From positions 26,726 through 85,100 of the forward strand of contig NZ_JAAHGH010000014.1 of NCBI RefSeq assembly GCF_010672525.1: a stretch of 58,375 bases of DNA. The letters are read 5' to 3'. The first letter of the stretch is position 1; each line of letters opens with the position of its first letter. This document shows, piece by piece, positions 17,555 to 35,391 of the stretch. The stretch is from Okeania sp. SIO2B3. Its GTDB lineage: Bacteria; Cyanobacteriota; Cyanobacteriia; Cyanobacteriales; Microcoleaceae. The translations under genes were made by a program, and so were the position numbers. The notes below the pieces were generated by a model. It was not told the DNA's origin and searched no databases. It worked only from the letters and a program-made list of their open reading frames with translations.

Positions 17555-18033
17555 TTTTGAAAAATAAAAAAGATTGAAGCAAGAATTATTCGCCAAACAC
17601 AATTTTATGACGGAAAGTTGAAGAGTGGAGCCATTTGGGACTAATTATTTTAGATTTTAGATAAATCTTGATAAAGCTACGAAAAACTTCATTGACAAAT
17701 TTTGTTGGTAGGAGTTATGAGCAAAGGTATAAAAAACCTCGACAAATGAAGAGTAGTATTTTTTGGGTTAATTCTTATGTGGATTGAGTTGTTGAAAGAT
17801 GGTTTTTCATCTTTGCATGGTACCCCACATACGCACCTCCAAGAATCGTTGTTAGCGAAGCTTTGCGTTAGCAAAACCCTGATTATGTCGTTGAATTGCG
17901 TATGTGCCTTGTGTAGTAAGGGTTTGAGCCTTGTCATTTTGGCAAATTTTGCCTTGTTGACATTTTAATCAAAGGGGGTGCGTATATTGGGGGGTCTGGA
18001 ACCCTTGCTCTGTGGGGCTTCTAGATCGTAGCT
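17555..18033. other. Intergenic, probable CRISPR leader side
   Basis: It contains GGCAAATTTTGCC (17941-17953) and a separated inverted repeat, ATACGCACCTCC at 17829-17840 and GGGGGTGCGTAT at 17974-17985. A TTGACA at 17956-17961 could be part of a leader promoter, although no -10 box sits at standard spacing. The array direction deduced from the repeat places the leader here. The frames at 17689-17937 and 17777-17968 have no family resemblance. Confidence 0.5.
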
Positions 18034-18439
18034 CTTTCCCAAACCAAATCCCTACTTAGGGATTGAAACCTTCACGATGGTGCCAGGAGGCGGACTTGAA
18101 CCGCCGACACGACTTTCCCAAACCAAATCCCTACTTAGGGATTGAAACTAGAAACTAGAGAAAAAACTAGAGCGGAAATTTTTTTCTCTTTCCCAAACCA
18201 AATCCCTACTTAGGGATTGAAACTTCTGTATCAAAGATTTTAGTGCTGAAAGTTATAAACTTTCCCAAACCAAATCCCTACTTAGGGATTGAAACATTTT
18301 CTTCCTTGCGGCTTCTTGCAAAGTAATCTCACTTTCCCAAACCAAATCCCTACTTAGGGATTGAAACTAAAAGTATCTCCATGAGATTTTATAGAGATTC
18401 TGTCTTTCCCAAACCAAATCCCTACTTAGGGATTGAAAC
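18034..18439 (+). CRISPR. CRISPR array, 6 repeats and 5 spacers, no cas genes nearby
   Basis: Six identical 36-nt repeats start at 18034, 18113, 18188, 18260, 18332 and 18404. Each begins CTTTCCCAAACC, contains the perfect hairpin AATCCCTA-CT-TAGGGATT and ends in ATTGAAAC. That terminus is the usual 5' handle of type I/III crRNAs and implies rightward transcription. Spacers are 43, 39, 36, 36 and 36 nt. Spacer 1 (18070-18112) is the antisense of a tRNA 3' half; see findings. No cas gene is in the window, so the array is either orphan or served in trans. Uniform repeats, including the last, suggest recent or active maintenance. Confidence 0.97.
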
Positions 18440-18561
18440 TATTTTTCTGCTAATTTTGATTGTTATTGCCTTTTTACTCTCCTAAACCAAGGTTAGCGCC
18501 TTGATCTGCTTCATCCTGATAAGCACCCGAAAAAAAAAGCCCGGCCGACTCAAAAATCAGG

Positions 18562-18590
18562 TTGAACTTTCACAAAAAATCAGATACAAT
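18562..18590 (+). promoter_or_regulatory. Promoter copy 1 of pheS leader
   Basis: TTGAAC and TACAAT with a 17-nt spacer. It drives a leader that has lost the start codon. Confidence 0.75.
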
Positions 18591-18756
18591 ACTTATATTG
18601 GGAGTCACTCGCCCCTAAGCATGACTAATTATTCAACTAAAAAAGATTCTATTACTAAACCACAAAAAAAATAACAAATCATATTGTTGTTAACACCTCG
18701 ACCAACTACATCCTGGGAAGCACCCGAAAAAAAGCCCAGCCGACTCAAAAATCGGG

Positions 18757-18785
18757 TTGAACTTTCACAAAAAATCAGATACAAT
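18757..18785 (+). promoter_or_regulatory. Promoter copy 2, before truncated pheS
   Basis: TTGAAC and TACAAT with a 17-nt spacer, identical to copy 1. It lies 92 bp upstream of the truncated pheS start. Confidence 0.78.
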
Positions 18786-18876
18786 ACTTATATTGGGAGT
18801 CACTCGCCCCTAAGCATGACTAATTATTCAACTAAAAAAGATTCTATTACTAAACCACAAAATAAAATAACAAACC

Positions 18877-18990
18877 ATGGCAACTCAACTAACAGAAATA
18901 GAAACCCAACTAACAGAACTACGCCAAACAGCGACAGAAGTGATCGCCACAACAAAAACCTTGAAAAATCCACACCAGACTCGTACTTAG
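18877..18990 (+). pseudogene. Truncated pheS 5' fragment
   Basis: [20 protein letters not shown] matches the real PheS N-terminus almost exactly. The reading frame diverges after TTKTLKN and stops at 18988, giving 37 codons. It has the same leader and promoter as pheS. It is either a dead duplication product or a small translated fragment. Confidence 0.85.
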
Positions 18991-19158
18991 GCTTGAACTT
19001 TTGCAATACTTACATATTAGGGCTAGAGCAAAACTACAAACAAAGCGATCGCCACAACAGAAAACCTTGAAAAACTGACACAAAACTATAGTTAAAATCC
19101 TCACCACTCTCATCCTGCCAAGCACCAAAAAAAAAGCCCGGCCGATTCAAAAATCAAG

Positions 19159-19187
19159 TTGAACTTTAACAAAAAGTCAGATACAAT
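19159..19187 (+). promoter_or_regulatory. Promoter copy 3, proximal to pheS
   Basis: TTGAAC, 17-nt spacer, TACAAT; about 91 bp upstream of the pheS ATG. The leader contains a 12-codon upstream ORF (ATG at 19218, MTNYSTKKDSIY). It has no Phe codon, so a classical Phe attenuator is not supported. Confidence 0.78.
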
Positions 19188-19278
19188 AGTTACATTGGGA
19201 TTCACTCGCCCCTACGCATGACTAATTATTCAACTAAAAAAGATTCTATATACTAAAGCACAAACAAAATAACAAACC

Positions 19279-20280
19279 ATGGCAACTGAAATGACAGAAA
19301 TAGAAACCCAACTAACAGAACTACGCCAAACAGCAACAGAAGCGATCGCCACAACAGAAAACCTAGAAAAACTAGAAGAACTAAGAATTAACTACCTGGG
19401 CAAAAAAGGCCAAGTATCCAAAATCCTCGGAGGTATGGGCAAACTCAGCCCAGAAGAACGACCAAAAGTAGGAGCGATCGCCAACCAAGTCAAACAAGCC
19501 ATCCAGAGCAACCTAGACCAAAAACGGACAAACCTCAAAACAGCAGAAATAGCAGCCAAACTCCAAGCCGAAACCCTAGACGTATCAATGCCAGGAGTAT
19601 ATCGTCCCCAAGGAAAAATCCATCCCCTCAACAACCTCATAGACCGTGCCCTGGACATATTCATTGGCTTAGGCTACACCGTCGCCACGGGTCCAGAAAT
19701 GGAAACCGACTACTACAACTTTGAAGCCTTAAACACACCACCAGACCACCCTGCCAGAGATATGCAAGACACCTTCTACCTACCAGACGGTAACTTAATG
19801 CGGACCCATACCTCTTCAGTGCAGATCCGTTATATGAAAAACCACGAACCCCCCATTCGAGTCATAGCTCCCGGTCGTGTTTATCGACGGGACACAGTAG
19901 ATGCCACCCACGCAGCAGTATTCCATCAACTAGAACTATTAGCAGTAGACGAAGGACTAAGATTTTCAGACCTCAAAGGAACTATCAAAGAATTCCTCAG
20001 ACAAATGTTTGGAGACCTACCCATTCGTTTCCGTGCCAGCTATTTCCCATTCACCGAACCCTCAGCAGAAGTAGATTTGCAGTGGAATGGCAAATGGTTA
20101 GAAGTATTAGGTTGTGGAATGGTAGACCCCAATGTATTAGAAGCAGTAGGTTATGATTCGGAAAAATATACAGGTTTTGCCGCAGGTTTTGGCGTAGAAA
20201 GATTTGCCATGGTGTTGCATCAAATAGATGACATTCGGCGAGTTTATGCCAGCGACTTACGTTTTTTGCAGCAGTTTTAA
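19279..20280 (+). CDS. pheS: Phenylalanyl-tRNA synthetase alpha subunit
   Basis: A 333-residue class II synthetase alpha chain that charges tRNA-Phe as an (alpha-beta)2 tetramer with PheT. The N-terminal coiled coil (to about residue 85) is followed by the catalytic core. Visible core elements are [16 protein letters not shown], the motif 2 region [20 protein letters not shown] and motif 3 [18 protein letters not shown]. Length is normal. The ATG at 19279 is supported by the matching truncated copy at 18877. pheT is not in the window, which is normal for cyanobacteria. Three tandem promoter-leader copies lie upstream, and the nearby CRISPR array contains a spacer against tRNA-Phe, the substrate of this enzyme. 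Confidence 0.97.
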
Positions 20281-33021: not shown

Positions 33022-35391
33022 ATGCCACACCGCAAGGAAGCGGCTCCACCGACCCCCTGGTCACAAGACTTGGCGAAGCCCAAGATTGATAAGACAGCTT
33101 ACGTTCACTACTGTTCTAACATAATTGGAGATGTTAGTGTCGGTTCCCATGTATTAGTAGCTCCCGGTACATCAATTCGTGCTGATGAAGGAACTCCCTT
33201 CTTTATCGGTGCAGGAACCAATATCCAAGATGGAGTAGTGATCCACGGCCTAGAACAAGGAAGAGTAGTAGGAGACGACAACCAACACTATTCTGTATGG
33301 ATAGGTAAAGATGTTTCTATCACTCACAAAGCTCTAATTCACGGCCCGTGCTATATCGGGGATGAGTCTTTTATCGGCTTTCGCTCTACAGTATTTAATG
33401 CCCGTATTGGTGAAGGCTGCATCGTGATGCTTCATGCTCTCATCCAAGACGTAGAAATTGCTCCTGGTAAGTATGTACCTTCAGGAGCAATTATTACAAA
33501 TCAACAGCAAGCAGACCGTTTGCCAGACGTACAACCAGCAGATCTGGAATTTAGCCATCATGTGGTGGGAATTAACGAATCTTTACGACAAGGTTATCTC
33601 TGTGCAGACAATGTCTCCTGTATTACACCTATTAAAACTGAAATGAATAGTAATTACGGTAACGGTAACGGTTACAGTTACAAATCTTCTGTAGCAACTG
33701 GCTCCCTAAGCCCAGAAGTAGTTGCTCAAGTAAGACAGCTAGTATCCCAAGGATATGATATTGGCACAGAACACGCTGATGCTCGTCGCTTCAGAACTGG
33801 TTCCTGGAAAACTTGTTCTCCAATTCAAAGTAAAAATTCCTCAGAAGTAGTAGCAGCTCTAGAAGCTTGTGTCGAAGAACACGCTGGAGAGTATGTACGT
33901 CTGTTTGGTATTGACCCCAAAGCCAAACGCCGAATTTCTCCAATTATGATTCAACGGCCTGATGGTAAAAAAATTGCTCAAAAATCGACTACTGGTAACT
34001 ATAGTGTTCCCGCTGCTTTTGGAGGTCAGTCTGCTACAACAAATACCACAGGATTAACTCCAGAAATTGCAGACCAAGTAAACTCTTTGCTATCTCAAGG
34101 ATACAAAATTAGCACTGAGTATGCCAATGAACGTCGCTTTAAAACTAGCTCTTGGCAAAATGGTCCAACTATTTCAGAAACCAGTGCCTCACAAGTATTG
34201 CCAGCTATAGAACAGTTTTTGGCAGAACATAGCGGTGAATATGTACGTTTGATAGGCGTTGACCCTGTAGCTAGGCGTCGTGTTGTAGAAACATTAGTTC
34301 AACAACCAGGCGATCGCCCAATTAAACAATCTGCTGTTGCCTCTTTCACTGCTAAAACTCCTGCAAATAGCCAAGGTAGTGTGGTCAATACAGGATTAAG
34401 TCAGGAAGTTTTAACTCAAGTAGGTTCACTATTTAATCAAGGACATCGCATCGGCATAGAACACGCTAATGCACGTCGCTTTAAGACTAGCTCTTGGCAG
34501 AGCGCTCCCATATCCGCACAGACTACTGCACAAGCAATAGATGAATTAGAAGCAGCTTTGGCACAGTATAGTGGGGAATATGTACGCTTAATTGGTGTCG
34601 ATCCTGCTGCCAAACGTCGGGTGTTGGAAGTATTAATTCAGGAACCAAATGGCAAACGCCAAGGAGTTACATCTAATGGAGCAGGCAATAGTAAGCCTCC
34701 TATTTATAATACTGCTCAAACCAGTTTGTCGAGTCAAGGTAGTGCAGTCAATACAGGATTAAGTCAGGAAGTTTTAGCTCAAGTAGGTTCACTATTTAAT
34801 CAAGGACATCGCATCGGCATAGAACACGCTAATGCACGTCGCTTTAAGACTAGCTCTTGGCAGAGTGCTCCCATTTCGGCACAGACTACTGCACAAGCAA
34901 TAGAGGAATTAGAAGCAGCTTTGACACAGTATAGCGGGGAATATGTACGTTTAATTGGTGTTGATACCGCAGCCAAACGTCGGGTGTTAGAAGTATTAAT
35001 TCAGGAGCCAAATGGCAAACGCCAAGTAGTTCCTACCGCTCAAGCTACAACTTCTAATGGAGTAGGTAATAGTTATCAACCATATAGTAGTGTTACAGCT
35101 ACTGCTAGTACCCAGAAGCTAACTCAAGAGGTTGTAGAACAGGTTCGCTCTTTGATTGCGAGTGGCTACAAAATAGGTACAGAGTATGCAGACCAACGCC
35201 GTTTCAAGACCAGTTCTTGGAAAACTGATACTCAAATTAATGGCAAACGTGATGCTGATGTTTTCCCAGCTATTGAGGAAACTCTAGCTCAACACGAGGG
35301 AGAATATGTCCGCTTAATTGGTATCGATCCTCAAGCTAAACGCCGTGTTTTAGAAATGATTATTCAGCAACCTAACGGTAAAGCGAAGTAA
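33022..35391 (+). CDS. ccmM: Carboxysome scaffold CcmM with gamma-carbonic anhydrase domain and five SSUL repeats
   Basis: A 789-residue organiser of the beta-carboxysome. Residues 1-210 form the left-handed beta-helix gamma-CA domain, with zinc-ligand histidines at 75, 102 and 107 and the cysteine pair C194/C200 known to activate the Thermosynechococcus enzyme, so it is probably catalytic. Five Rubisco-small-subunit-like (SSUL) domains follow (about 225-310, 345-430, 450-540, 570-660 and 695-785), each with RRFxTxSW and GEYVRLxG(I/V)D. Three to five is the usual range. Repeats 3 and 4 are nearly identical, also at DNA level. Met208 (ATG 33643) is a candidate internal start for the short form that crosslinks Rubisco. 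AAGGAGA precedes the main ATG. Confidence 0.97.

Follow-up and report, generated by a model that had tools for sequence, protein, structure and literature searches.

CRISPR targeting has been studied for HAI2 of Pectobacterium atrosepticum, an island located at tRNA-Phe (PMC3630108). As far as the available passages of that report go, its attB lies in a phenylalanine tRNA gene and the protospacer lies in the island gene eca0560, not at an att junction. In Eggerthella lenta, which belongs to another phylum, the predicted attP of the clade 1 prophages consists of a tRNA 3' end followed by CCA and a short trailer; the tRNA is tRNA-Leu, and the passages available describe no spacer across this attP (PMC8778435). 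A spacer of Pelobacter carbinolicus matches the synthetase gene hisS and, according to the available part of the source, was reportedly expressed and growth-inhibiting in a transgenic strain (PMC2923632). An RT-Cas1 of type III-B is described for Arthrospira (PMC5513706, available passages). Finally, one survey discarded seven spacers with aspecific matches, for example inside rRNAs or tRNAs (PMC8482600, available passages); as a match to a tRNA readily leads to a spacer being set aside as unspecific, records of this kind may escape notice. In a literature search of limited depth, no description of a spacer spanning a tRNA attP was recognised.

Here, a stretch of 58,375 nt from the cyanobacterium Okeania sp. 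SIO2B3 (the window) was analysed. Positions 18034-18439 contain six copies of a 36-nt repeat, without a mismatch between copies, and five spacers of 43, 39, 36, 36 and 36 nt, which is the layout of a CRISPR array (Table 1). The first spacer is the longest, as the first-pass annotation had stated. Read as its reverse complement, it joins the 3' end of tRNA-Phe to CCA and a short trailer, like the predicted attP of the Eggerthella prophages. Its putative element, which would share with HAI2 an attB in a phenylalanine tRNA gene, was not found in the collections searched. The theme of tRNA charging is shared with the hisS spacer of Pelobacter; however, spacer 1 matches a tRNA end and not a synthetase gene, and its handle-proximal side is foreign. 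As in Arthrospira, the host encodes an RT-Cas1, located near Cmr2, but the repeat of the array in the window is a different one, and no cas gene was recognised alongside this array. Spacer 1 probably belongs to a known and fairly ordinary kind, the spacers against mobile elements, and has an instructive junction.

Table 1. Positions in the window of the array, the parts of spacer 1 and the neighbouring features.
Feature	Position	Strand	Remarks
Presumed leader	17930..18033	+	5' of repeat 1; mostly common to congener G311
CRISPR repeat 1	18034..18069	+	36 nt; presumed leader side
Spacer 1	18070..18112	+	43 nt; read as reverse complement: tRNA-Phe bases 42-73 (gene of 73 bases) + CCA + TCGTGAAG
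Foreign part of spacer 1	18070..18080	+	11 nt, CTTCACGATGG; adjoins the ATTGAAAC end of the repeat; 0/11 identity with the host locus
tRNA part of spacer 1	18081..18112	-	32 nt identical to the host tRNA-Phe 3' end, minus-strand reading
Repeats 2-6 and spacers 2-5	18113..18439	+	spacers at 18149-18187, 18224-18259, 18296-18331 and 18368-18403
pheS	19279..20280	+	encodes the alpha subunit of phenylalanyl-tRNA synthetase; adjacent, but probably without a connection to spacer 1

The repeat was found nowhere else in the host (whole genome of 10.0 Mb in 249 contigs, up to three mismatches). Its ATTGAAAC terminus, which we take to be typical of cyanobacterial arrays, suggests that the array is read rightward; provided that this is so, spacer 1 is antisense to the tRNA-Phe 3' end, in agreement with the first-pass annotation. 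The promoter scan around the array gave five sites compared with 3.7 expected in shuffles, and none was a + strand promoter upstream of the array. ARAGORN detected no tRNA gene within the window, and the comparison of the window with Rfam gave no match at gathering score. Spacer 1 had also been regarded as the newest spacer; this was judged from its position, and the three imperfect repeats at the supposed leader end of the array in the congener G311 give no help on this point.

The one gene for tRNA-Phe(GAA) that was detected in the host genome (G000:C235:17704-17776, equivalent to L005:1501-1573) was compared with spacer 1. The last 32 bases of the gene were identical to the reverse complement of the spacer (32/32, consecutive), whereas none of the 11 bases beyond the last tRNA base agreed (CCATCGTGAAG in the spacer, TTCGGCCTTGC in the host; 0/11). 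The match therefore stops exactly at the tRNA end and is followed by CCA and eight foreign bases. This exact run of 32 nt, the longest of spacer 1 in 30 host tRNA loci, compares with at most 14 nt in 200 mononucleotide shuffles and with 11-14 nt for spacers 2-5 in the same loci. The tRNA-Phe identity that had been assigned in the first-pass annotation is thereby confirmed, with the correction that the host acceptor strand reads GCCGGGA and not GCCAGGA. The description of the spacer as a tRNA 3' end with CCA also holds, but host and spacer diverge at the CCA and not after it, as the host tRNA-Phe gene encodes no CCA. In the tRNA sense, the motif TCGTG occurs twice in spacer 1, at its start and directly after the CCA (TCGTGTCGG...CCATCGTGAAG), which may be due to chance.

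In the host tRNA search, 38 matches were obtained with 150 of 712 candidates scored, so that a host tRNA may be missed; a pattern search of the genome with up to two mismatches served as a cross-check for further tRNA-Phe ends. The 20-nt tRNA-Phe end occurs at two places in the host genome, namely in the gene and in spacer 1. With this single copy besides the spacer, the host tRNA-Phe site looks empty now, and no recombinase was recognised among the listed open reading frames downstream of it when their translations were read. According to the first-pass annotation, its reading would be refuted if no tRNA gene of the host or its mobile elements matched the spacer over its length. Taken literally, this is the case, since the full 43 nt occur once in the genome, in the array itself (up to three mismatches), and nowhere else that was searched; a split into 32 and 11 nt is, however, what an att junction predicts.

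We propose with moderate confidence that spacer 1 is the memory of an integrative element, a temperate phage or a genomic island, that uses the tRNA-Phe 3' end as its att site. Among the explanations considered, this one is the best supported; a phage-borne tRNA comes second, RNA capture is possible and self-regulation is unlikely. The first-pass annotation had already suggested an att site, and comparison across the order gave support to it in the form of truncated tRNA-Phe copies, oriented pairs and recombinase domains. A search of 388 genomes of the order with a pattern for the T-arm and acceptor matched 132 genomes, including the host; the four congeners had one copy of this tRNA-Phe end each. 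For the comparison of flanks, 68 distinct copies were taken from part of these matches, so that the counts are lower bounds, and intact and truncated copies were distinguished by reading the sequences. This yielded 45 intact copies (one with Ns) and at least 21 truncated copies with non-tRNA DNA on their 5' side, the latter distributed over at least 20 of the 388 genomes; two copies cut by contig ends (G025) were dropped. At least 11 intact/truncated pairs shared contig and strand at a distance of up to 25 kb, and in all 11 the intact copy was located 5' and the truncated copy 3'. Eight pairs were spaced by 18-25 kb (maximum 24.7 kb), the others by 11.8, 4.1 and 0.3 kb, and one pair (G297) came from the host's own family. 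Outside these 11, a same-strand pair 1.13 Mb apart (G240) and an opposite-strand pair (G200) were seen. When 20 proteins near the att sites were scanned, a tyrosine recombinase domain (PF00589) was detected inside five of the 11 pairs, over the Pfam cut-off in G125, G007 and G327 and just under it in G017 and G290, and no recombinase was recognised in the other six. Genes for GH19 lysin-like proteins adjoin the intact copy in G290 and G007. Integration at the tRNA-Phe 3' end thus recurs within the order.

The junctions were examined in 18 intact/truncated comparisons, some of them across contigs, in which the leftward identity count ends at the first mismatch. The last 32 nt were fully identical (32/32) in 10 of the 18. 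Divergence set in no more than one base after the tRNA end in nine comparisons and immediately, as in spacer 1, in one; the remaining 17 shared at least one base beyond the end. The anatomy of the spacer, that is, identity to a tRNA 3' end which ends at foreign sequence, is therefore close to that of an intact/truncated tRNA-Phe junction. Exact identity extended leftward to tRNA bases 26-36 in 11 comparisons and to bases 49-52 in seven; in four of these seven (G017, G265, G067 and one G253 copy) similarity resumes past the mismatch, so that a true stop at the T-loop was seen in G297, G200 and G034 only. As a side observation, the tRNA-Phe islands (L119-L136, L086-L089 and L141-L158) seem to fall into two classes: in most of them the shared core reaches back to the anticodon arm (bases 26-36), in G297, G200 and G034 to the T-loop (bases 51-52).

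One feature of spacer 1 fits the att-site origin less well. CCA followed none of the 68 tRNA-Phe ends read in the order, and a search of the 388 genomes for the tRNA-Phe-end pattern plus CCA matched spacer 1 itself and nothing else. A CCA-bearing arm is thus unusual for an att site of this kind, which raises the odds that the source had its CCA encoded or added to it, as in a phage tRNA gene or a mature tRNA, respectively.

If spacer 1 does derive from an integrative element, the attP of this element would hold a copied tRNA 3' end and, after it, the element's own arm CCATCGTGAAG, and a 43-nt piece spanning the attP or attL junction would have been captured as a spacer. Judging from the ATTGAAAC terminus of the repeat, the foreign 11 nt would be placed at the 5' handle-proximal end of the crRNA and the tRNA part would be distal. 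All 43 nt would then pair with the attP of an incoming element or with the attL of an occupied tRNA-Phe gene. The empty host gene would pair distally only and should be spared, since 5'-seed systems, as well as Cas10 activation in type III, depend on the 5' end of the guide. An att-junction spacer would in this way let CRISPR distinguish empty tRNA genes from occupied ones, its handle-proximal side being specific to the element and its distal side common to self.

The protospacer was searched for in collections of phages, plasmids, viral contigs (IMG/VR), genome_contigs and the genomes of the order, and no element carrying it completely was found in any of them; for this reason, the att-site origin is not regarded as proven. 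Spacer 1 gave no match in IMG/VR, neither by exact 21-mer nor by a relaxed tRNA-like pattern, none in genome_contigs, and none over its 43 nt in the 387 other genomes of the order (up to three mismatches). Against phages and plasmids, only tRNA-like partial matches were obtained (92 and 151 records, respectively), of which three phage and 21 plasmid records covered at least 80% of the spacer. Seven phage and three plasmid records fell into the bands of at least 99% identity, figures which refer to the matched pieces only, and the best full-length plasmid match among those listed reached 79.1%. Spacers 2-5, searched as 25-26-mers in IMG/VR, gave nothing. The whole array had no match in phages; of the eight plasmid records that it matched, six were tRNA-like and two were weak Nostoc matches.

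These searches bear directly on the possibility that spacer 1 was taken from a tRNA-Phe gene on a lytic or extrachromosomal phage or on a plasmid, with encoded CCA, its own trailer and no att site. We consider such a source possible, though doubtful. The CCA of the spacer argues for it, as the host tRNA-Phe gene has none and CCA is encoded in just one of 37 host tRNA genes examined (tRNA-Leu-TAA). Phages do carry tRNA-Phe genes; in a Stenotrophomonas phage, this gene shares 94.8% identity with its host counterpart in Okeania over bases 8-65. Moreover, a circular Sulfitobacter record of 46 kb (NZ_CP136687.1; L169, 28134-31165), catalogued as a plasmid and containing a phage terminase, bears a tRNA gene (tRNA-Met according to ARAGORN) whose 3' end including CCATC corresponds to spacer positions 7-38 at 93.8%; the likeness of this tRNA end, with its CCACCATC, over 32 nt indicates that such tRNA layouts exist on phage-like elements. 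However, among the listed phage matches with a spacer coverage of at least 75%, the tRNA-Phe genes are 84.8-85.7% identical, compared with 32/32 for the host gene. Furthermore, the core pattern of spacer 1 was present in no IMG/VR contig, and none of eight viral contigs found with a tRNA-like pattern ending in CCA contained a tRNA-Phe. It is even far less probable that the spacer was taken up as DNA from the chromosomal, CCA-encoding tRNA-Phe gene of another cyanobacterium: the last 32 nt do recur in many of the order's tRNA-Phe genes, but apart from the spacer neither the 43 nt (up to three mismatches) nor the tRNA-Phe end with CCA was present in any of the 388 genomes.

CCA is added to tRNAs post-transcriptionally, and the mature tRNA-Phe would therefore match the spacer over 35 nt, compared with 32 nt for the gene. 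This opens the way to an origin by RNA capture, in which reverse transcription of a mature tRNA-Phe with its CCA tail preceded the insertion and the last eight bases were acquired by template switching or untemplated addition; we regard it as improbable. The means for it exist in the cell, as the genome encodes an intact RT-Cas1 fusion (708 aa, RVT_1 and Cas1) near Cmr2, and the resulting crRNA would be complementary to the tRNA. However, the RT-Cas1 is accompanied by arrays with other repeats, and the eight last bases, which unlike the CCA do not fit a processed tRNA, require an extra step. The 221 spacers of the RT arrays, compared with a small part of the 10-Mb host genome that included the tRNA loci, had a longest match of 19 nt after filtering of the matches on both cas contigs, which also argues against RNA capture. 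The sole tie to the array in the window is a similarity of repeat ends, ATGGAAAC in the RT arrays and ATTGAAAC here, as judged by eye. In its specific form, in which template switching links a reverse-transcribed fragment of mature tRNA-Phe to the terminus of a second RNA and RT-Cas1 places the product in trans into an orphan array, this route is likewise unlikely. If it were true, RNA-derived spacers would be visible as DNA with a CCA that is absent from the gene and was added after transcription. Un-encoded CCA is also a cheap marker for finding RNA-derived spacers.

The host has two Cas1 loci, both with RT pieces and with repeats unlike that of the window. At the second one (L050:14490-18996, G000:C232), the RT-Cas1 seems to be interrupted by a group II intron, with an intron protein (RVT_1, GIIM, HNH) between the RT and Cas1 pieces. 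Among the effector genes, Cmr2 was the one identified in the host; searches for Cas3 gave weaker helicase matches and none over the cut-off, and the Cas6 model PF10040, which is insensitive, gave no match. In 14 control genomes, the Cas1 search was positive in nine, that for Cas3 in all 14 (six over the cut-off) and that for Cas6 in two. No Cas1 was detected by this search in any of the four congeners.

The first-pass annotation had also raised self-targeting or control of the tRNA, and had pointed to pheS as the next gene downstream. The presence of pheS was confirmed (PF01409, E 1.9e-99; 839 bp from the last repeat). In a regulatory role, the crRNA would bind tRNA-Phe and control phenylalanine charging in connection with the adjoining pheS. 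The complementarity over 32 nt of the gene and 35 nt of the mature tRNA, the proximity of pheS and the precedent of the Pelobacter hisS spacer speak in favour of such a role, but we consider it very unlikely. The handle-proximal end of the spacer agrees with the host locus in none of 11 positions, and no full-length host match including this end was found. A clean self-targeting spacer was rejected on the same ground, the 11 mismatches lying where the crRNA 5' end would be. In addition, the structure of a tRNA would hinder pairing with a guide.

The link to pheS is probably due to chance, and the neighbourhood looks coincidental. The congeners G311 and G294 carry an array with the same repeat upstream of pheS, and by reading, none of their spacers equals a spacer of the window; the array has therefore diversified within the genus. 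The G311 array (L075, G311:C263:94442-95494) has seven clean spacers and one position of about 470 bp between the first two repeats, and the G294 array has one spacer. Between array and pheS, the region 18532-19370, which comprises the sequence upstream of pheS and the pheS start, contains a 140-nt unit in three copies (the others 98% and 86% like the first) and a 109-nt unit in two copies that are 90% alike. As the gap between array and pheS is about 430 bp in G311 and 839 bp in the window, the pheS leader was probably duplicated in a lineage-specific event.

Further observations concern the contig of the window and the window itself. Beyond the window, at L033:6821-7155 (G000:C46:108822-109155), low-scoring matches to tRNA-Arg and tRNA-Val and a third tRNA-like match lie in tandem, possibly a mobile tRNA cluster, and a tandem array with units of about 87 bp is located at L032:14014-14806. 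Within the window, positions 33022-35391 encode a carboxysome protein, which we take to be CcmM-like, with hexapeptide repeats and five stretches resembling the RuBisCO small subunit, an ordinary architecture.
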